From a virus: a stretch of DNA of 51,904 nucleotides. A program made the translations under genes and the position numbers. The stretch covers positions 1-51,904 of IMG/VR virus record IMGVR_UViG_3300026382_000023; one strand, 5' to 3'. The notes under the pieces were generated by a model. The model worked only from the letters and a program-made list of their open reading frames with translations, searched no databases and had not been told where the DNA came from. Below, in pieces: positions 15,117-44,050 of this stretch; the stretch's first letter is position 1; each line of letters opens with the position of its first letter.

Positions 15117-15147
15117 CGTATAGGGGCGACTAATCGCCCCTATACGT
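15116..15147. terminator. Bidirectional terminator between convergent genes
   Basis: A 13-bp perfect GC-containing stem ACGTATAGGGGCG with a 6-base loop is flanked by T-rich sequence in both directions. It overlaps the 3' end of the dNMP kinase gene and the TGA of the gene at 14241. Confidence 0.88.
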
Positions 15148-15738
15148 GTGTTTCTTTGTACATGCTTCTAACAATATGTCTTTGAGATACGTGTTAATGT
15201 ATTTATCTAATTTTTCTAACCCGTAAGGTAACGTTATCTCTATATCATAATCTATCTTATCTAACTCATAACGTAAACCGTTCTTGTTACATGATTCAAG
15301 TTCTGAATGCATAAAGATTTTTACAACAACATATTCGTCTAAGTACTTACCTATCTTACTTTCTAACATATACCTCATATCAGGTATAATAACTATATCA
15401 GGGTTATTCTCCTTAATAACATTCACTACTTTTTTTAGAAAGTAATATGGATCGCTTTTTCTTATGTTCTTAGCTATACTGATTAAATGTTCTCTTACCG
15501 TAGCAGGGGCGTTCACATTCTTGATATATATCTCTACATCCTGTCTCTTGTATTTATGCAGATCTGGTACTGGGATACCGGATAGTTCTGAGAGTTTCTC
15601 GTATAACGGTTGAGCGAATGAGATCTTTAACGTACTATACCCTTCGTTTTTGAATACGGTTATTAACTTATCAGCTAGCGTATCTTTACCACAGTTATCA
15701 TAACTAGATATAAGTATAACGCATTTACATTTCTTCAT
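15130..15738 (-). CDS. Deoxynucleoside monophosphate kinase-like P-loop protein
   Basis: The product has 202 residues from ATG at 15738, which follows AAGGAGATGAGA. Earlier in-frame ATGs are too close to or upstream of that site. The N-terminus VILISSYDNCGKDTLADKL is a P-loop with S in place of the first G. KISFAQPLYEKLSEL, then TVREHLISIAKNIR and IVIIPDMRYMLES follow in the order seen in phage dNMP kinases (T4 gp1-like). The last corresponds to the usual D-x-R-x-x-x-E element. Expected reaction: phosphorylation of dNMPs to dNDPs for phage DNA synthesis. The start lies inside the 3' end of the polymerase gene (14-base overlap), implying translational coupling. Confidence 0.75.
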   Translation of the reverse strand: MKKCKCVILISSYDNCGKDTLADKLITVFKNEGYSTLKISFAQPLYEKLSELSGIPVPDLHKYKRQDVEIYIKNVNAPATVREHLISIAKNIRKSDPYYFLKKVVNVIKENNPDIVIIPDMRYMLESKIGKYLDEYVVVKIFMHSELESCNKNGLRYELDKIDYDIEITLPYGLEKLDKYINTYLKDILLEACTKKHTYRGD

Positions 15739-17890
15739 TCTCATCTCCTTCTTCATACTTGTCTACATATTTCATATCTGGAGGATTGTATATGGATAAC
15801 CCTGTCATAGTTAAGTAAAGCACGTTACAATTATCCTTAACTAATCTGTCAACGTCTATGATATTTCTAAGTTCTTCTGGTATACCTTTACTTTTTACGT
15901 TAACTAACGGCAGGATAAATGTCTTTATTTCGGTTTTACCATATTTCCTAACTATGTTTCTTAACTTGGTAGCGAATTCTTTATCTTGTGTTTTTAACCA
16001 GTCTTCAAAGTCTTTATTACTATTAATAGTAGTCGATATTTTAACGGCTAGATACGTAGGTTCTGGCGCTCTGCCATATTTATCTGCGAACACTTCTTCC
16101 CATACTAGATGGTTGAAATATGGAGTCTTACCTGGATTATCGCTATTCTTGTATGCGGTAAGTTCCTTTATCTTCATAAGTTTAAATATGTCCGTTTCTG
16201 ATCTGTTAACTTTGTCGATGATAAATTTTTCTAAATCCCTAGTCCATGAGATGTATTTATCTAAACGTAGATTTTTATTATCAGATACGGTTGCTAATAT
16301 ATCTTTCATCATGTTTTCAGCTTCTTTTCTAACGTGAGGATGTATCTGAGATGCTATAAGGTTAACTCCTTTTTTCTCAAGATCTGGTTCTTTAAATACG
16401 TTACCTTCTTGTATACGTACCTGCGCATAATAATGTTTAGATGCATCAGTGTTAACGAATACATCCCAGAAGAACTCGTTCTTCATTTTCAATACGGAAG
16501 CAGTTCCAGGATCTATATTCATGTTGACGCCTAACGTTTTGATATAATGGTCTATAGCTTGCGTAGTGAATGTCATAACTATAGCAGTTACACCTATAGA
16601 TGTAGGGTTGATATCGTAGCTACCTTGATACCAGTACGCCCAATCCTGATATGTAGCACAAGTACTATCAGTATCTGATAGTACTATAACCTTTCTAGTA
16701 CTGTCTTTTATATACGCTATACTAGGTGGAAATATATTTGTAACGTAAAATGCTTGTATCAGATCTTTTAAATCAATAATATTGTCTAGAAACGTCTTAC
16801 CTACTTTAGCTATCTTTTCTACTAAATCTAGAGGCATTTCATCTACAACTGGTTTTATACCCTTAGCGTCTTCTATTAACACATGCATAGCTAGGTTAAA
16901 AACCCATGATGGTAACGATGTAACTATGTCTTTAGCATTTTCGTTTAATTTTAAGTCATGTTTTAAAACCTTGTCGAATAACTCTCTAACGAATTTATCG
17001 TTATATCTTCTTAGATTGTAAAAACTGTTGATATACGTTATAGCTGCTTTACCTCTATAGTCTAACGATTTTAGATACTTGTATATCATTTGTTCGTATT
17101 TAGGAGCTCTCCAATACGGTTTTATATTCTCTATAACTATATTGTTCATTATTTCATCTACGGTAGGTATGTATAAATTGTACTTTTCTACTATATGACC
17201 TATAAGATCAAGATCAGACATCGATACTAATGCATTTAAATGCGCCATGGTTACATCAGGGTCTCTATAATGTCTATTATCTAATATCATGTACTCTGAA
17301 ATAGCATTACCTATACCTGATACGCATCTAGTTATAGATGTTAAAGTATAATGCGCTGATGGATTATATAACACCGTACCAGGACTAGCATATGCACCAG
17401 ACAATGAGTTATTAAAAATCTTTTTAGTAGACTGTATAACTTTATGATAATTAGACTTCTCTATATCACCTTCCATCTTGTATTTAAACATAAGTTTTTT
17501 ATGTTCGTTCCTAGATTTAACGTTAGCGCTAATGAACTCACTATGTAATGATTTTTTCTTCTTAGGATTAAAATAAACAGTAAATGATGGTACCAGTATA
17601 TCGTTACTTTGTTTTACATAATTTATATATCCCATAAGTGATGTAACGTTAGTAGTAACGTTCCCTTCAAGATCACGTTCTTTGAACTTAACTTTTGGAT
17701 TACGTACCTTACCTTCCTTCTTAAGTTCAGATAACTTATTCCTTACTAACTCTTTTGCTTTGTCTATAGGCATATTTTTATACTTAGATACCAGATATGA
17801 TGTTTGCTCTATGTAATCGTTAACAGGATCTATATGCGGTTTATACTCATGATTAGGTTTCTTAAATATTTCCTCTACGTTGAAATCCAT
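15725..17890 (-). CDS. Family B DNA polymerase, C-terminal piece (split polymerase)
   Basis: The product has 721 residues with TAGGAGGACGAT before the ATG. Residues about 115-150 resemble the fingers helices. KKIFNNSLSGAYAS at 156-169 matches motif B (K-x6-N-S-x-x-G). VIVLSDTDSTCA around 401-412 matches motif C, with the metal-binding DTD at 406-408. Residues about 468-500 (KNEFFWDVFV, then KHYYAQVRIQEG) resemble the thumb K-K-R-Y element. The 3'-5' exonuclease domain and motif A (D-x-x-S-L-Y-P) are absent, so a partner subunit must be encoded elsewhere. Motifs B and C are about 240 residues apart, far more than the usual 60-80, so a domain is inserted at about 200-395. Cotranscribed with a dNMP kinase. 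Confidence 0.8.
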   Translation of the reverse strand: MDFNVEEIFKKPNHEYKPHIDPVNDYIEQTSYLVSKYKNMPIDKAKELVRNKLSELKKEGKVRNPKVKFKERDLEGNVTTNVTSLMGYINYVKQSNDILVPSFTVYFNPKKKKSLHSEFISANVKSRNEHKKLMFKYKMEGDIEKSNYHKVIQSTKKIFNNSLSGAYASPGTVLYNPSAHYTLTSITRCVSGIGNAISEYMILDNRHYRDPDVTMAHLNALVSMSDLDLIGHIVEKYNLYIPTVDEIMNNIVIENIKPYWRAPKYEQMIYKYLKSLDYRGKAAITYINSFYNLRRYNDKFVRELFDKVLKHDLKLNENAKDIVTSLPSWVFNLAMHVLIEDAKGIKPVVDEMPLDLVEKIAKVGKTFLDNIIDLKDLIQAFYVTNIFPPSIAYIKDSTRKVIVLSDTDSTCATYQDWAYWYQGSYDINPTSIGVTAIVMTFTTQAIDHYIKTLGVNMNIDPGTASVLKMKNEFFWDVFVNTDASKHYYAQVRIQEGNVFKEPDLEKKGVNLIASQIHPHVRKEAENMMKDILATVSDNKNLRLDKYISWTRDLEKFIIDKVNRSETDIFKLMKIKELTAYKNSDNPGKTPYFNHLVWEEVFADKYGRAPEPTYLAVKISTTINSNKDFEDWLKTQDKEFATKLRNIVRKYGKTEIKTFILPLVNVKSKGIPEELRNIIDVDRLVKDNCNVLYLTMTGLSIYNPPDMKYVDKYEEGDENEEM

Positions 17891-17948: not shown

Positions 17949-17976
17949 AGTATAGGTAGAACTATCTACCTATACT
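17949..17976 (-). terminator. Rho-independent terminator
   Basis: A 12-bp perfect stem AGTATAGGTAGA with a 4-base loop is followed on the minus strand by a T-rich run (17930-17942). It overlaps the last codons of the gene at 17970. Confidence 0.88.
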
Positions 17977-18899
17977 AAAACAAGATTATCTTTGATAATT
18001 TTATCTAAGATTCTAATGGTTTCCTTAACGTTAATGATTCTCTTCTTACTCTCTATTATCTTTCTAAAGATCGACTTACTGTTAATACCTTCAGTTTCAA
18101 CCATATATAAGATAGACATGAACGTAGGTCTATTTTCAACCATTGCTAACGCTAGTTCCTTACTATTAGTGCTATAAAATGTTCTAGATAATGATTGTAT
18201 TAACATATCGCTATCTAATGCTTGTACTCTTCTATCGTCTATAACGGTTTTGATATTGTTAAGTAAGTCGCCTATAGTCTTACTTGGTAACTTGATCTCA
18301 GATAGCTTAGAAATGTAATTAGGAGTGTGTTCTCTTATATTACGTAAAAGCATGATAGGGATATGATCTAATACTGATCCGGTTACTCTATCCTCATCCA
18401 TGAATCTATAATGCAAGTTAGTTATAGCTTTTAAAACTGGAAGTATCTCTTTGTTAAAAACTAATAAAGAGATAGTGTTAGATAGTACTTCAGAGAACAT
18501 CATAGCTAACTGGTTATTGATGTTACTAAAACTATTAGGATCTTCTATTAATAACCCAGTGAATAACATCCTATATAAAAGCATTCTACCATTGTATCTA
18601 TCCTGCAGAACATCTGAGATGTTAACTGTTTCTGTAGATACGTTGCTTTTAACCATATGTCTGAAATCACCTGCTATAACTGTACTATCTTTATACATAA
18701 AAAGAAATGGATGATAGAACGGTTGAATATCCTCATCTCTACAATAAACTCCAGTTAAACACATATATTTAACTTTATCGGTATCAGGCAACTCATAACT
18801 CATTGTGCTACCATGTTCTATATAAAGCTTCATGAGCTTCTTAGTTAAGTCCTCTGCTCTAATCGTAAACCCTAACGTACCGTCATATACGTTCAACAT
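17970..18899 (-). CDS. Hypothetical protein, possibly virion-associated
   Basis: The product has 309 residues with TCAAGGAGCAATAC before the ATG. The N-terminal third is mixed alpha/beta, the rest helical and ending in a basic leucine/isoleucine-rich helix. There are no catalytic motifs, signal peptide or membrane spans. It is a single-gene unit between the polymerase operon and the 609-residue gene, with its own terminator. About 15-30 bases upstream the minus strand reads TTGAATTAATAAGACT, a weak variant of the promoter motif seen elsewhere in this window. Function unknown. Confidence 0.85.
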   Translation of the reverse strand: MLNVYDGTLGFTIRAEDLTKKLMKLYIEHGSTMSYELPDTDKVKYMCLTGVYCRDEDIQPFYHPFLFMYKDSTVIAGDFRHMVKSNVSTETVNISDVLQDRYNGRMLLYRMLFTGLLIEDPNSFSNINNQLAMMFSEVLSNTISLLVFNKEILPVLKAITNLHYRFMDEDRVTGSVLDHIPIMLLRNIREHTPNYISKLSEIKLPSKTIGDLLNNIKTVIDDRRVQALDSDMLIQSLSRTFYSTNSKELALAMVENRPTFMSILYMVETEGINSKSIFRKIIESKKRIINVKETIRILDKIIKDNLVLV

Positions 18900-18971
18900 G
18901 TATTGCTCCTTGATAGTCTTATTAATTCAAACTATAAATCTAAGAAAAATAATGAAAAAAAGAAGGTGGGA

Positions 18972-18990
18972 GAGGACTAGAATAGTCCTC
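18972..18990 (-). terminator. Rho-independent terminator of the 609-residue protein gene
   Basis: An 8-bp stem GAGGACTA/TAGTCCTC with a GAA loop contains the TAG stop (18977-18979). On the minus strand it is followed by CCCACCTTCTTTTTTTC. Confidence 0.75.
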
Positions 18991-20806
18991 CTCCGAATCC
19001 GAAGCTTGGTTGTGTAACGTTAGGTCTAGTGAATCCTGTAGTACCGAAGTTGATACCTCTGATTCCACCTTCAGCATAAGCTTGGCTAATGAGTTGTAGG
19101 TCATTGTTAACCATAAAGTTGTGATCGATTGCAGCTTGTGTTCTTGGATTATACCCTGCTGCCATTGCAGCATTTACAAGCTCAGTTAAGAACACTCCAT
19201 TAATAGGAATTCTAATTGCTTTTCCAGTTATGATTGCATTCGGAACGATTTGGTTAATAACTTCTATTTTTAGTCTTAATGGATCTTGACCTGATACGCT
19301 AGCAGGCACGTTGCTTAAGATCCAGTTATGGATGATTTGTGGATCTTTAGCATTCTCTACGATAAATGCTAGATCTATTTCTCTAACGTCTCTAACATTC
19401 CCTTCATTATCTACGAATTTACCTACTGGTACTATGATACCTTCGTTAGCAGCTACTTGTTTGGTAGCAATGCTTTTGCCCACCATAGCCTCTGCTGTTT
19501 TAACGATATAATCATTAGCTCTCTGAGCTAATGCTGGGTTGTCGTTCATCAAGTGTAGATATGCGAAAGGCGCTTCTTTATCAAATCCAGGTCCATATAG
19601 TTCTACTTCTAGAGATATAACTGGTTCAGCTTCAAACATTTTGCTAATAATCTCTACTACTTGTTGTTCTGTTAGTTTTCCAGATTTGAGATGTAGTTTT
19701 TCACCGAAGCCTTTTTTATTGTCCTCGATGTTAGTGATGAAGTTAAGTACTCCTACATCTCTGTTAACATTAAGTAGCATTTGCATAAGTTGATTTGGAT
19801 TACCGAACACAGCGCTATTGATTAAACTCATTAACACCATGTCGGTTGTTTGTTTTAATCCATCCGTAGTATTGATAATAATGTTAGGTTTGATAGATCT
19901 TTTAATCATACCTGGTGCTAATGGTTTTTCTACTGGCAAATATTCCATATAACCAGTAGATGTTACTAGGTTAAACTCTTTATACTCTGTATTCAATCTT
20001 GCAGGGAATTGATTTTGGTTGTTATTAGGCGTGAACTTCAATGTCATCATGAAGTCTGATCTAATAACCTTACCAGTCTGATCTTTAGTAATACCTGCGA
20101 TATGTGTGATATCTAATTTTGGAATATATGTTTTAAATCTGTTCACTAGACCTCTTATAGGTACAGGTCCTACAATACCAGCTACCTCAGCAGCTTTACT
20201 AATATTAATTTTTTGTACTAAACTAGCTATCTTACTAGCTGCTGTTTCTACATCAACATCGTCTGGAATAACTACGCCAGATGTACTTACTAATTTATCT
20301 ACTTCAACATTCAATGCGCTTGTTAGAACCGCTTTAACTGCTTTGTCCATAATTTCGTCAAACGCGTCTGCTGGTACCAATACATAGAATTGATTTCTGA
20401 TTCTAGCTTCTTCAACTATTTCTGCTACTGTTTTTGGTAATGGACCAGTAGCTGACAATAAAATAGTGTGATAGAACACTTTGTCAGATTTATTTGTTCT
20501 AGTTGCAAGTACCACTACGCTATATGCAATGTTGTACGGTGCTACGTTCTCTTTGTCAATTTTTAGTACTACATTCTCGAATTTAACATCTTTTTCAACG
20601 ATTTCTTTCTTTACTCTTTCATTAAGAGTGTTGGCAAACTTTTCCAAATACTCACTGTTACTATCATTTTGGATAAATAAATCTAAACCTAAGATGTCGA
20701 TTTCATTGTTCATATCTTTACCTCCAACTGTGTCTTCTTTAAAGATGTCTTCTACTCTAGCTTTGTTTTTAGCTGTGTTGTTCATTCTTTCGTCATGTAG
20801 TGCCAT
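18977..20806 (-). CDS. Probably abundant 609-residue protein of unknown family (capsid or other self-assembling protein?)
   Basis: AAAAGGAGTAAGAC precedes the ATG. Two tandem copies of the candidate phage promoter lie upstream (20834-20849 and 20951-20966), as does a structured leader, which points to high expression. The sequence is rich in A, V and I with few cysteines and has a mixed alpha/beta texture. An N-terminal charged segment (1-75) precedes a domain containing APYNIAYSVVVLATR, and the middle and C-terminal parts contain PLAPGMIKRSIKPNIIIN and IPINGVFLTELVNAAMAAG. The last 30 residues are glycine/phenylalanine-rich, ending SFGFGGGLF. I recognise no family. Candidates are a major capsid-type protein or another shell or lattice former. 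Its C-terminal FG pattern recurs in the protein at 30227. Confidence 0.88.
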   Translation of the reverse strand: MALHDERMNNTAKNKARVEDIFKEDTVGGKDMNNEIDILGLDLFIQNDSNSEYLEKFANTLNERVKKEIVEKDVKFENVVLKIDKENVAPYNIAYSVVVLATRTNKSDKVFYHTILLSATGPLPKTVAEIVEEARIRNQFYVLVPADAFDEIMDKAVKAVLTSALNVEVDKLVSTSGVVIPDDVDVETAASKIASLVQKINISKAAEVAGIVGPVPIRGLVNRFKTYIPKLDITHIAGITKDQTGKVIRSDFMMTLKFTPNNNQNQFPARLNTEYKEFNLVTSTGYMEYLPVEKPLAPGMIKRSIKPNIIINTTDGLKQTTDMVLMSLINSAVFGNPNQLMQMLLNVNRDVGVLNFITNIEDNKKGFGEKLHLKSGKLTEQQVVEIISKMFEAEPVISLEVELYGPGFDKEAPFAYLHLMNDNPALAQRANDYIVKTAEAMVGKSIATKQVAANEGIIVPVGKFVDNEGNVRDVREIDLAFIVENAKDPQIIHNWILSNVPASVSGQDPLRLKIEVINQIVPNAIITGKAIRIPINGVFLTELVNAAMAAGYNPRTQAAIDHNFMVNNDLQLISQAYAEGGIRGINFGTTGFTRPNVTQPSFGFGGGLF

Positions 20807-38062: not shown

Positions 38063-38514
38063 TTTTCCTCCTTATCTACATAATCAAATATTTCATTGTT
38101 CACTAGAAGTGGTATGGTATACTTTCTTAAATTAACTAACCATTCCTCTACTGTAACGTCCATAGGTAAATATTTTAATACAGGCATGATGTTAAACTTA
38201 TCGTTCTCTCTTTTTTTCTTATATAGCAGCTTACTTATAGCGATATTGATAAGAGGTACTTGTACCTCTGGTCTCATTTTCTGTAATCCTGGATATTCAC
38301 GTAGCAGATATTTTAACATATTTTTAGCTTGTTGTTCAGAGTAGAGTTTCATATAGTTATAGATCATAACTAACGGGTTGTATTCATGTTCAGTGTTATT
38401 GTCATTAATGAGTTTATCAGCTGTCTCCATCATCTTTTCATAAACTTCATCATAGTCCTTGATTACTTCTTCCATATTTACCTCTAAGCTATTTTTTACC
38501 GGTTTTACTTCCAT
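38059..38514 (-). CDS. Hypothetical helical protein
   Basis: The product has 151 residues starting MEVKPVKNSLEV. The ATG at 38514 follows GAAGGAGTTGATA. A later in-frame ATG (MEEVIKDYDEVY) also has an AGAGGT site and cannot be excluded. It is all-helical and acidic, with a basic middle (KLLYKKKRENDKFN). It overlaps the UvsX-like gene by 26 bases upstream and the 233-residue gene by 4 bases downstream. Coupling to a recombinase-like gene suggests, but does not prove, a recombination or replication accessory role. Confidence 0.8.
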   Translation of the reverse strand: MEVKPVKNSLEVNMEEVIKDYDEVYEKMMETADKLINDNNTEHEYNPLVMIYNYMKLYSEQQAKNMLKYLLREYPGLQKMRPEVQVPLINIAISKLLYKKKRENDKFNIMPVLKYLPMDVTVEEWLVNLRKYTIPLLVNNEIFDYVDKEEK

Positions 38515-39985
38515 TATCAACTCCTTCAAAATGTTCTATGTATTCTTTCTTAGGTAATTTAGTTTTCTCATCCATCCAGTAAGGCGTGTATAATCCTTTT
38601 CTCATTCTTAGTATGTCTAACGTTGATAAGAATGGTGTTATTTTTTTGCTATAATTATCTATAGTCCACCATCCTCTTGTCTGTAATAAGATATTCCAAT
38701 CATATCCTAGTTTCTTAATGTCTTCGTATAGCTCCGTAGGAGTACAGTATAGATCTTTATATTGTGGAAAGAAGACCATTAACTGTTTAAGCTCTGCTAA
38801 TATGTTAACCGCTCTTCTTAGTTTTTTATCTTCTTTTAACTTCCTTCTAACGGTTGTTCTAGATAGCTTAATATCAGGCATAAGTTCTATCCAGTATGAT
38901 CTAGGATTACCCCCTATACCGAATTTGTTAGTTTTAAGATAATGGAATTCTGTAAGTTCAGGTATAACTCCTTCTCTTTGACTTACCACTAGTTCTAGAA
39001 CATAACCAGACGGTCCAGTTTTAGATCTAAGTTGTTTTAACTTAACTACGTTAAGATCTGTTTCAACGTCATCTTCATACATAGGATATTCCGGTAACTT
39101 GGTATTAGCATTGATCAACGCTGTAGTACCATGTGCTACCCACATATGTGTCGTTAAGAAGTTAAGCTTATCACCTGCTCCTTTTATTTTCTCATCTTGT
39201 TTTAGATATTGTAGATCTTTAGTAGGTTTAGCATATGGATTGTTAGTCATGTCTATCTTTCTACCTACATGAGCCGTTATACCAAAATATATATTATGTT
39301 TATTAGCTAACCTAGGTAATTCTTTCATTACCTTAACTTTGAATAAACCTTGTTGCATGAACATAGTATTAGTCTTATCTAGATCAGATTTCTCTAACAT
39401 ATCTGTAGTTATAGACGGTTCAAATTCGGTTAAACTATCTATAACTATAAAATCAGGATAGGGTAGTTTTAATACATCTCCTGTCATAGGGTCTTTAAAC
39501 GCAGTATATTCAACTTCTTTATTAGATTCTTCTTTATCCTTAATGAATGGATATAGATACTTTTGTACCCATTCTTCTGCAGCCATGTCTGATTTAGATA
39601 TAATCGACCATGCACCTGTACCTATTAAATCTTTAGGTAAATATTCAACTATAGGCTCTGCTAGTTGATTGATTCTCTCAGGATTTAGCTTAAGATTATC
39701 TTCAGTATCATACGTATGACCAGATGTTTCTTCAGGTATACTAGCTTCCATTCTATCCATAGCTTTTATCATTAGGTAATACATAATAGTAGATTTGAAA
39801 TTGTTACCTAATCCTACTATACCTTCTATAGACGATAAACCTCCATTTATGATTTTCTCTCCTTTAGCTCCTTCTATAATAATACCGGTAGGTATGTCTA
39901 ATAAAGCTCCTACATTGATACTTGGTCTTATTTTAGTTTTAGATACTGTCTTTAATAACTGATTGATTTTATTCCTTCTACCCAT
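38489..39985 (-). CDS. UvsX/RecA-like ATPase
   Basis: The product has 498 residues with GTAAGGAGGATAAAT before the ATG. The core carries IEGIVGLGNNFKSTIMYYLM with a Walker A of the form G-x4-F-K-S-T at about 58-66. T4 UvsX has the same F-K-S variant in place of G-K-S/T. DFIVIDSLTEFEP at about 178-190 is Walker B, and LANKHNIYFGITAHVGRKID corresponds to the RecA-family segment after Walker B. The C-terminal third (about 370-498) is an added helical, tryptophan-containing domain. Expected role: ATP-dependent strand exchange or a related RecA-fold function in phage recombination and replication. A RadA- or KaiC-like ATPase is the alternative. First gene of a three-gene coupled operon. Confidence 0.78.
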   Translation of the reverse strand: MGRRNKINQLLKTVSKTKIRPSINVGALLDIPTGIIIEGAKGEKIINGGLSSIEGIVGLGNNFKSTIMYYLMIKAMDRMEASIPEETSGHTYDTEDNLKLNPERINQLAEPIVEYLPKDLIGTGAWSIISKSDMAAEEWVQKYLYPFIKDKEESNKEVEYTAFKDPMTGDVLKLPYPDFIVIDSLTEFEPSITTDMLEKSDLDKTNTMFMQQGLFKVKVMKELPRLANKHNIYFGITAHVGRKIDMTNNPYAKPTKDLQYLKQDEKIKGAGDKLNFLTTHMWVAHGTTALINANTKLPEYPMYEDDVETDLNVVKLKQLRSKTGPSGYVLELVVSQREGVIPELTEFHYLKTNKFGIGGNPRSYWIELMPDIKLSRTTVRRKLKEDKKLRRAVNILAELKQLMVFFPQYKDLYCTPTELYEDIKKLGYDWNILLQTRGWWTIDNYSKKITPFLSTLDILRMRKGLYTPYWMDEKTKLPKKEYIEHFEGVDNGSKTGKK

Positions 39986-40067
39986 ATTTATCCTCCTTAC
40001 ACGTAAAGTTCAGAAGATTGAATAGGTTCAAGATTTCTTGAATTATAACGATAAAAAGGAGCTAATA

Positions 40068-41825
40068 ATGAGATCTTTTAATATACCTAAGTGGGATGAA
40101 AGTACCGGATTAGAACATATAGGTACTGACTGGCAGTTATCTACTACTTTGGACTTCAATGATGAAGATATAGTAGAAAGTGTAGAAAACTCATCTACAT
40201 ATTTAAACGTATGGTTAGTTAATGCAGAGGTACCAGTAGGGAATGTATGGTATGTAAGAGCAAGAAGGAATTTGAAAAATCCTGACACAGGTGAAGTAGT
40301 AAAAGGTGACTGGATAGGACCTGAAAGAGTTATTTCTGAAGACTACGGTACAGGTATACTTATACCAAAACTATTCATATCTAAACCATCTATTAAGAAT
40401 ATAACTATGGACGACCAGCACTTACATATAGAGATGCATTCTCCTATATCTAATGTTCCAGTTAAAAATTTATTTTTAGAACTAAGAGACCATATGGATA
40501 AAGTACTTGGTAGTTTAGTATTTGATCCAAGCCTTAATACGTTATCTATTAGTAACGTAGAATACGGATTGTCTAACTTACCTTATTTTAAGATTAAGTT
40601 AATATACCAAGGAATTAACGGAGTATGTTCACCAGTGAACACTTATACACACAGTTATATAGACGATATATGTTATATAGAAGGTAACATTAACAACATA
40701 GCGTTGAATGGAGTAACAAGATTGCTTATAAAACCTAAAACTAGCGGAATACAAGTATCAGGGGTTTCTGCTAATATAACTACATTAACAGGTACCGTAG
40801 TTCAATCATTGAAAATCGCTAACAATACTATACTAATAGACGGTACTAAACTCGAACCTAAAACTACGTACTATTTAATCCTTATAGGTAACTATATCGA
40901 TGAGAACAACAATACTCATGGATTCACTAAACCATTTGTTATATCAACTAGAGACCCATTTTATAAACCTAGGTTCGATCCTGATAATAGTTATACATAT
41001 AACGTATTTGAAACTATAGAAGTTAACAATACCATAACTAACAATGTTACATATGTGAACGAAGATATATTCGGTAATATTATACTAGACGATGGCGTAA
41101 ATTACCAACTAGTTAAAACGTCTGATTATAGTTTTATTAAATCATTAGCAAATACGTTTAATAACAAGGTAATGATTAAAACCGTAGCTAATGATTGTTT
41201 AATTATAGCTGAAGAAAAAGATAAAAATGGTTCTGTAACATTACATAGTTATAACATAGATCCGGTTAATAAAACCATTTCTGAAACAAGTAGCTTAGAT
41301 CTAGCATTTAACTATAACCCTATCACTAACAGAGCTATGGTATTCGATGGTAAAAATATAATTATGTTAGACACGTTATCAGATGGATTAAAGATAATTA
41401 AGATTAACCCATATACGTTAGAACACGACGCTATAACCATTAATAAATTCGGTTTTAAAGATATCTATTTTTCTCTAATCCCTAATAACGCGCTTATAGT
41501 TCTAGAAAAAGATGAGAAAGCAGATTATACGTATTACGTCGATCTTGATAACTTAAACATTATACAATACTTAGGTACTCCTGGAGAGATACGAGGTAAA
41601 GATGCTTTATTCACAACGTTATCTAACGGTGTAACGGTAGCAATCGTAAATGATAATGGTAAGATAGGTATAGGTATATTAGACAATATTAGAAAAGTAT
41701 TTAGCTATAAAAATACTGGAGCAAGTATTAGTTACAACATAGATACTTTAGTGTATAAACGTAACGGTGAGCTAAATATATTAGACATAGGTAGTGATAA
41801 ATTTTATGTACATAAGCTAGGATAA
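40068..41825 (+). CDS. Fibronectin III-like plus propeller-like fibre or adhesion protein
   Basis: The product has 585 residues starting MRSFNIPKWDESTG. This ATG follows AAAAAGGAGCTAATA. An ATG 30 bases earlier is in frame but lies ahead of that site. Residues about 15-95 read like a fibronectin III module (DWQLSTTLDF, then VPVGNVWYVRARRN). A second beta module follows (about 205-300, ending TYYLILIGNYIDENNN). The C-terminal half has short repeated strands such as NPITNRAMVFDGKNIIMLDT and SLIPNNALIVLEKDEKADYT that look like a beta-propeller. Such proteins in myovirus tail clusters are fibres or receptor-binding or baseplate decorations. It lies directly upstream of the sheath gene. Confidence 0.72.
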   Translation: MRSFNIPKWDESTGLEHIGTDWQLSTTLDFNDEDIVESVENSSTYLNVWLVNAEVPVGNVWYVRARRNLKNPDTGEVVKGDWIGPERVISEDYGTGILIPKLFISKPSIKNITMDDQHLHIEMHSPISNVPVKNLFLELRDHMDKVLGSLVFDPSLNTLSISNVEYGLSNLPYFKIKLIYQGINGVCSPVNTYTHSYIDDICYIEGNINNIALNGVTRLLIKPKTSGIQVSGVSANITTLTGTVVQSLKIANNTILIDGTKLEPKTTYYLILIGNYIDENNNTHGFTKPFVISTRDPFYKPRFDPDNSYTYNVFETIEVNNTITNNVTYVNEDIFGNIILDDGVNYQLVKTSDYSFIKSLANTFNNKVMIKTVANDCLIIAEEKDKNGSVTLHSYNIDPVNKTISETSSLDLAFNYNPITNRAMVFDGKNIIMLDTLSDGLKIIKINPYTLEHDAITINKFGFKDIYFSLIPNNALIVLEKDEKADYTYYVDLDNLNIIQYLGTPGEIRGKDALFTTLSNGVTVAIVNDNGKIGIGILDNIRKVFSYKNTGASISYNIDTLVYKRNGELNILDIGSDKFYVHKLG

Positions 41826-41926: not shown

Positions 41927-44050
41927 ATGGCAACAATAATTAATGCTGCTCCATTTAATTATAACTTAGGAACTGATGACCAGTCTATAAGACTAGTGTA
42001 TCCTGAACCAGTGAAAATAGGTATGCATGTACCTTTTTTCATGCACTGGGCGTTGATGGGTGATGATAAGAAAAGACCTGTTTCAGGTGCAGATTTAGTT
42101 AAGTTATATGGTCTAGATCAAATAGACGTAGGGCATCCTATGTATCATCCAGCCGTTAAATTTATCAAAGACATGATGGTAAACGGCTGCGTATCTATGA
42201 TGTTTAAAAGAATAAGACCTACTAACAGTAAATTCGGTAGTTTAGTTGTTTATTTAGACGTTCTAGAAGACAAAGTACCTAAATATAAGAGACATAGTGA
42301 TGGTAGAATCGTATATGACGAAAGCGGTAACCCAGTTGAAGATGATGATAGTCCTATCCCTGGTTTAAGAGTTAAAGTTATAACTGAATGGCAATCGTTA
42401 GACGATAAACATTCACTAGGTACGTTAAAACCTAAAGACGGTACTATGACAGATGCAGATGGTAATAAGTCTACCATGTATCCAATTATCCAATATGTAA
42501 GTGATAGCTTCGGTGCATATTACAATAACTTTGGTATAGCTTTTGAACTAGATTATAAAAAAGATTTTGATCCATCATTCCTAGAAGAAACAAAAGCGTT
42601 ACCTTATGAGTTTTACGTATATACTAAAGATGCTAACAGCAACCCTGTTATAGTACCTAACCTCTATAAATCTAAACATAAAACATTTGTATTTAAACCT
42701 GATACAAGAGATCCAGTAACAAAATTAAAAATAGATTTAGATAACGTGTTGAATAGCTGGTTTAACACAGATGATGATACTTTACCATTAGAATATCCTA
42801 AATTTGAACAATGGTATTATAAAGAAAATATGGAAAAGGTGCTTAAACTGGCTGTTAGTAAAGAAGCACCATATATCAATGCTGATGTTGAAACAAAAGA
42901 AGGTACTGTTAATACTAGCAGTTGGTTCGATTTTATCCCATCTGATAACCTAGATGATCAAACTTGGTTATTAAACATTTGGAACGGCTTCAGTACTAGC
43001 AGAGTACCTTACTTCAGTGTACAAATTGATAAATCAGCAGTTACTCTAGCAGATAACCAAGAAGAAGTAACTATTTCTTATAACTTACCACTATATCTAA
43101 AAGGTGGTAGTGATGGTGATCTTACTATAAAAGATCTAGAAGCTAAAATAAGAACTGAATTAGCTAAATACCTAGATGAAAACAGTGAATATATGGATAC
43201 AGCTATCAACCTTGAAAATATCATGTATGACGTTGGTTATAGCATGGATGTAAAAGAAGACATGGTTAACTTCATAACTCTTAGAAAAGATACATTTGTA
43301 GTATTAAGCACTAGAGATAACTCTCTAGGTGATAAAGTCTTATCGCTAGAAGACGATAGAGCTATAGGTATAGCGCTTAAAAGTAGATTATCACTAGCAC
43401 CTGAGTCTACTGAATTCGGTACACCTGTAGTTAGAGCTATGGTTGTTATGGGTGCTGGTAAAGTTAAAAACAGTATAGATACTAACTGGTATCCTCTAAC
43501 ATACCAAATAGCTATAAAATCATCTAGATTCATGGGCGGTACTGAATGGAAAAAAGCAAACTTATTCGATAGAGGAGAAACTAACATTATAGATCTAATG
43601 TATGACATTCAACCAGGATTTATACCTAATGGCGTAAAACCATCATTGTGGAGCATAGGTTTAGTATATGCGCAACCGTATGATATTAAATCATATTTCT
43701 TCCCTGCATTGCAAACAGTTTATTATAACGACACTAGCGTACTTAACAACTATTTCGTAGCTATGGCGTTAACATACATAGCTAAAGTATCTGATCAAAT
43801 CTGGAGAGAAATGACAGGTAGTATTTCATATACTCCAGATGAACTTATCGATGAAATCGAAAAAAGAGCTGCTGCTAAACATGTAGGTAAATTCGCAGAC
43901 CTTATTAAAGTCATACCTAAAGCTATGATAACTGACTACGATGCATTAAGAGGATATAGCTGGACATTAGTTAACGAACTATATGCTAACAATAGTAGAA
44001 CAGTTATGACTACATATACTGTCGCTAGAAGAATGGAAGACCTACAATAA
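41927..44050 (+). CDS. Contractile tail sheath protein
   Basis: The product has 707 residues with AAAAGGATGTGTT before the ATG. Typical sheath features: N-terminal beta domain with a conserved early part (RLVYPEPVKIGMHVPFFMHW), a variable middle with insertions (about 110-340), and a C-terminal domain with PGFIPNGVKPSLWSIGLVYA, FVAMALTYIAKVSDQIWREM and a final helix ending VARRMEDLQ. Sheath subunits polymerise around the tail tube and contract to drive it through the envelope. Length is within the range for large myoviruses. It is followed by the tube-like gene 51 bases downstream, the usual sheath-tube order. Confidence 0.82.
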   Translation: MATIINAAPFNYNLGTDDQSIRLVYPEPVKIGMHVPFFMHWALMGDDKKRPVSGADLVKLYGLDQIDVGHPMYHPAVKFIKDMMVNGCVSMMFKRIRPTNSKFGSLVVYLDVLEDKVPKYKRHSDGRIVYDESGNPVEDDDSPIPGLRVKVITEWQSLDDKHSLGTLKPKDGTMTDADGNKSTMYPIIQYVSDSFGAYYNNFGIAFELDYKKDFDPSFLEETKALPYEFYVYTKDANSNPVIVPNLYKSKHKTFVFKPDTRDPVTKLKIDLDNVLNSWFNTDDDTLPLEYPKFEQWYYKENMEKVLKLAVSKEAPYINADVETKEGTVNTSSWFDFIPSDNLDDQTWLLNIWNGFSTSRVPYFSVQIDKSAVTLADNQEEVTISYNLPLYLKGGSDGDLTIKDLEAKIRTELAKYLDENSEYMDTAINLENIMYDVGYSMDVKEDMVNFITLRKDTFVVLSTRDNSLGDKVLSLEDDRAIGIALKSRLSLAPESTEFGTPVVRAMVVMGAGKVKNSIDTNWYPLTYQIAIKSSRFMGGTEWKKANLFDRGETNIIDLMYDIQPGFIPNGVKPSLWSIGLVYAQPYDIKSYFFPALQTVYYNDTSVLNNYFVAMALTYIAKVSDQIWREMTGSISYTPDELIDEIEKRAAAKHVGKFADLIKVIPKAMITDYDALRGYSWTLVNELYANNSRTVMTTYTVARRMEDLQ

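Follow-up and report, generated by a model that had tools for sequence, protein, structure and literature searches.

A probable catalytic subunit of a split family B DNA polymerase in a phiKZ-type phage genome fragment

We analysed a stretch of viral DNA of 51,904 nucleotides (the window; IMG/VR record IMGVR_UViG_3300026382_000023) and found that one of its open reading frames (ORFs) very probably encodes the larger, catalytic half of a phiKZ-type phage's split replicative family B DNA polymerase, the palm of which would be completed by a separate partner subunit of the PHROG 3011 family. The window chain would supply the fingers (R127, K131, K157, N161), the palm hairpin with D406 and D408, the KxY motif and the thumb, and the PHROG 3011 subunit would supply the 3'-5' proofreading exonuclease together with the motif A strand and the remaining catalytic aspartate. 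A single palm active site would arise only when the two chains come together. Since the position of the cut and the residues on each side of it can be named, a trans-complemented active site is directly testable. Features of the window and of the partner genes of its relatives are collected in Table 1.

Table 1. Positions of the polymerase gene, its internal features and neighbouring genes in the window, and of intron sites in partner genes of relatives
Feature	Position	Strand	Basis or remark
Divergent family B DNA polymerase, catalytic subunit, without motif A or exonuclease	15725..17890	-	PF20286/PHROG 2927; AlphaFold pLDDT 90.4; Foldseek to RB69/T4 gp43
Fingers helix pair, residues ~115-165 (R127, K131; motif B K157/N161, KKIFNNSLSG)	17396..17548	-	Invariance in 50 relatives; PolB fingers profile match E 2.6e-6; helices 115-139, 143-165
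All-helical insert, residues ~181-381	16748..17350	-	AlphaFold secondary structure; B-to-C length in 50 relatives; PMC7824862
Motif C SDTDS (residues 405-409), flanked by strands 402-406 and 409-412	16664..16678	-	Sequence; alignment; AlphaFold
KxY motif K485-H-Y487	16430..16438	-	Invariance in 50 relatives; hhalign to T4 KKRY
Deoxynucleoside monophosphate kinase-like gene	15130..15756	-	PHROG 139 E 2.4e-22; neighbour, outside polymerase
phiKZ gp28-like vertex protein	17970-18899		
Chimallin (nuclear shell protein) homologue	18977..20806	-	PHROG 4795 E 1.2e-31
phiKZ gp29-like sheath	41927-44050		
Partner-gene intron sites	L011:3480-3871 and L011:3841-4974	-	Also L128, L130

The polymerase ORF begins with ATG and is open over 721 codons (721 aa). 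We found that PF20286, "Divergent Family B DNA polymerase" (divDNApol), matches it with an E-value of 1.2e-170 and 569.6 bits, the gathering cut-off being 25.7 bits, and that the match is full-length, pairing ORF residues 12-701 with profile positions 2-691 of 705. PHROG 2927, 'DNA polymerase', matches the same frame (E 5.7e-175). The ORF is a family member far beyond chance, in agreement with the family B identity given in an earlier note on this DNA, and the full-length match is to the phiKZ-type family, the group with which a comparison was proposed there. Neither the canonical PolB family PF00136 nor PF03104 had a Pfam match anywhere in the window, and a phmmer search of the polymerase against solved structures returned no match, so that profiles were needed. 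Homologues were found by tblastn (E <= 1e-3) in 295 phage records of the GenBank phage collection searched, with mostly full-length matches and a best identity of approximately 31%. The nearest IMG/VR contigs carry polymerases of 48-56% identity, the two closest relatives (G005 and G006) being 55-56% identical. The window polymerase is a rather divergent new member of an already known polymerase type, and it adds a deep branch to the unusual replicase of chimallin-encoding phages.

All 50 relatives in the conservation alignment of the window polymerase share eight invariant residues with it (R127, K131, K157, N161, D406, D408, K485, and Y487). The motif B string KKIFNNSLSG, beginning at residue 156, and SDTDS at 405-409 were both located in the frame where the earlier note had placed motifs B and C. 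The spacing of R127 and K131 is that of the fingers residues in FFQRKDWKKKM of T4 gp43, and the spacing of K157 and N161 is that of its motif B; the equivalent residues have functional roles in RB69. Motif B and a DTD motif C thus stand on one chain that has neither exonuclease nor motif A, as had been claimed: a search for the motif A pattern D-x4-Y-P-[SNT] found none in any of the window's six frames.

Predicted structure points to a polymerase as well. AlphaFold modelled the window polymerase with 50 relatives at a pLDDT of 90.4 and a pTM of 0.87, and the model runs from helical fingers (115-165) through an all-helical block (181-381) to a strand pair around D406 and D408. The 50 best Foldseek matches among solved structures were all RB69 or T4 gp43, so the protein modelled alone does resemble a polymerase, as the earlier note expected. 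Against RB69 the E-value was 3e-5 at a probability of 1.00 with a low TM-score of approximately 0.28; the low RB69 scores probably reflect the insert and the lack of one palm strand. When the window family profile was compared by hhalign with T4 gp43 alone the match was weak (probability 7%, E 0.0047), and the same profile hits the fingers of PolB (Pol zeta, E 2.6e-6) as well as RB69 705-755 (E approximately 3e-5). Among predicted viral structures the two best matches to the window model reached a TM-score of 0.89, and the AR9 polymerase reached 0.68. Two separate short viral proteins in BFVD, G4KKA3 (242 aa) and G4KKA6 (420 aa), which we take to belong to phage phiR1-37, match parts of the window model; these matches hint that in a relative the polymerase subunit is divided into still more pieces.

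The missing parts of the enzyme are found in a second protein family. The earlier note had reasoned that a second polypeptide with motif A and an exonuclease must lie outside the window, and this inference is supported: PHROG 3011, whose members include PHIKZ082 of phiKZ, OBP_099, and SPN3US gp44 (itself assigned to this PHROG), is such a family. In eight partner homologues ExoI (D152/E154), ExoII (N262/D266), and ExoIII (Y395/D399) are invariant, as is motif A (D506/D508/Y513/P514, D-x-D-x4-Y-P), which is also present in 43 of 45 IMG/VR partner ORFs. In hhalign the partner family covers T4 gp43 105-431 (E 1.5e-14), a stretch that includes the exonuclease motifs and ends just past DLTSLYPS. 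Since the partner's alignment stops just past motif A and the window family profile picks up the fingers, the domain content and conservation of the two families place the cut after motif A and ahead of the fingers with motif B. A phmmer search of SPN3US gp44 against solved structures found no match, and here too profiles were needed. In the partner model (L137) the exonuclease part is confident and RB69-like (E 1.6e-13), and residues 436-509, motif A included, have a pLDDT below 50; this would fit a palm strand that depends on the other chain for folding, though the shallower alignment of 28 rows may contribute to the low value.

We found that polymerase and partner have a near-identical taxonomic spread, the partner occurring in 292 phage records and the polymerase in 295, with equal counts in most host genera, among them Pseudomonas, Erwinia, Vibrio, Serratia, Aeromonas, and Klebsiella. 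A separate gene for motif A and the exonuclease, which the earlier note had advised looking for, was found in 26 of the 32 larger IMG/VR contigs that carry the polymerase; the other six are 78-166 kb long and may simply be incomplete. No partner gene was found within the 52-kb window. In the two closest relatives the partner is one intact ORF (558 aa in G005 and 554 aa in G006) at distances of approximately 67 and 120 kb from the polymerase, far enough to account for its absence from the window. The full genome of this phage would likewise carry a partner, and the two chains would physically assemble into an active enzyme.

In one relative of 222 kb (G004) the partner appears as two frames with exonuclease and motif A apart, as in a three-way split. 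We rejected this reading, as a group I intron (Rfam RF00028, E 3.9e-17) and an HNH endonuclease ORF lie between the two frames. Group I introns at the partner-gene break were also found in G012 (two introns) and G015. In several IMG/VR relatives, then, such introns break up the partner gene close to motif A, in one case with an HNH homing endonuclease ORF.

A self-sufficient single-chain polymerase, in which a motif A within residues 1-126 has diverged beyond recognition, would explain the frame without a partner, and N-terminal strands in the AlphaFold model (66-72 and 78-84) could be palm. However, no position among 1-126 holds an acidic residue (D or E) in more than 40 of the 50 relatives, compared with 50 of 50 for D406 and D408, and a canonical motif A is invariant in the separate partner; we consider a single-chain enzyme highly improbable. 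The same lack of motif A and exonuclease on this chain could mark a structural PolB remnant that has lost catalysis, as the C-terminal half of Pol epsilon has, with another enzyme as the true replicase. We reasoned that a dead enzyme would not be expected to keep its catalytic and fingers residues, and the eight residues named above are invariant in the 50 relatives; the family is moreover paired with the partner throughout, so that a dead remnant is slightly less probable still. We therefore prefer a split, catalytic polymerase.

The earlier note put approximately 240 residues between motifs B and C, and this enlargement is real: K157 and D406 lie 249 residues apart (245-295 across the family, 50 relatives), whereas K557 and D618 of T4 gp43 are 61 apart. 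In the AlphaFold model helices 181-381 precede strand 402-406, forming a long multi-helical insert ahead of the second palm strand. The inserted domain had been thought undescribed, but a long multi-helical insert ahead of palm strand 2 was described in 2021 (PMC7824862), and the helical B-to-C insert of approximately 200 residues is a family-wide trait. The same study suggested that the insert possibly binds DNA and makes up for a missing clamp (PMC7824862). A fuller proposal is that the active site forms in trans, with the proofreading subunit contributing one metal-binding aspartate, that polymerisation therefore depends obligatorily on loading of that subunit, and that the insert serves as a built-in processivity factor in place of a clamp; it is tentative and rather unlikely to hold as a whole. 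That the long segment is a mobile insertion (an intein or homing endonuclease) outside the enzyme proper is extremely improbable, for although homing-endonuclease introns do occur in the partner gene of some relatives, the segment is present in all 50 aligned relatives, is all-helical and confidently folded, has no intein or nuclease match in Pfam, and is described as a family trait (PMC7824862).

The gene content around the polymerase is that of a chimallin-encoding phage. Since the PF20286 polymerase lies near chimallin and the window also carries phiKZ-like vertex and sheath genes, a UvsX-like gene and a fragment of RNA polymerase beta, the window is a fragment of a phiKZ-type, nucleus-forming phage, and a fragment of an uncultured phage is thereby placed in the chimallin-encoding group. 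Polymerase and chimallin are near neighbours in phiKZ too, but the polymerase comes before chimallin there and the order is reversed in the window, where, in the direction of transcription, the chimallin and gp28-like vertex genes (17970-20806) immediately precede the polymerase. The last 32 bases of the polymerase gene (15725-15756) are also the start of the kinase-like gene, which suggests coupled expression. The UvsX-like ORF (38489-39985, minus strand, 498 aa) matches positions 36-349 of the PHROG 97 profile with residues 9-474, leaving approximately 150 extra residues; it had no Pfam match at E <= 0.01 and no intein was recognised in it. An ORF of 595 aa adjoining the tail sheath gene (40038-41825, plus strand) had no Pfam or PHROG match.

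The earlier note regarded a split palm as rare, and this is not supported. The split arrangement has been known since approximately 2012 (OBP, phiKZ, SPN3US) and is carried by nearly all phiKZ-type giant phages. A passage in PMC5105663 refers to the 'split subunit DNA polymerase' of phiKZ, one in PMC5694885 names gp18 and gp44 of SPN3US as a split subunit DNA polymerase, and passages in both point to Cornelissen et al. 2012 for the split-subunit polymerase of OBP and related phages; PhiKZ polymerases form one of four divergent PolB clusters (PMC7544198). The phiKZ-type catalytic subunits (PHIKZ050, SPN3US gp18, OBP_055) are similar to the window protein in length, have the same order of motifs and match the profile over their full length. 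They share its fingers, motif C and KxY residues and its long helical insert, likewise lack exonuclease and motif A, and differ only by sequence divergence. The partner subunits (PHIKZ082, SPN3US gp44, OBP_099), each encoded by a separate gene, complement the window protein when both are mapped onto T4 gp43. The polymerase subunit of the Bacillus jumbo phage AR9 shares the family by structure (TM 0.68-0.75) and has conserved fingers and the DTD motif, but is more distant, at 16-17% identity to the window polymerase. When both chains are counted, the catalytic motifs and overall PolB fold are those of T4 and RB69 gp43, which, unlike the window system, consist of a single chain and contain no helical insert.
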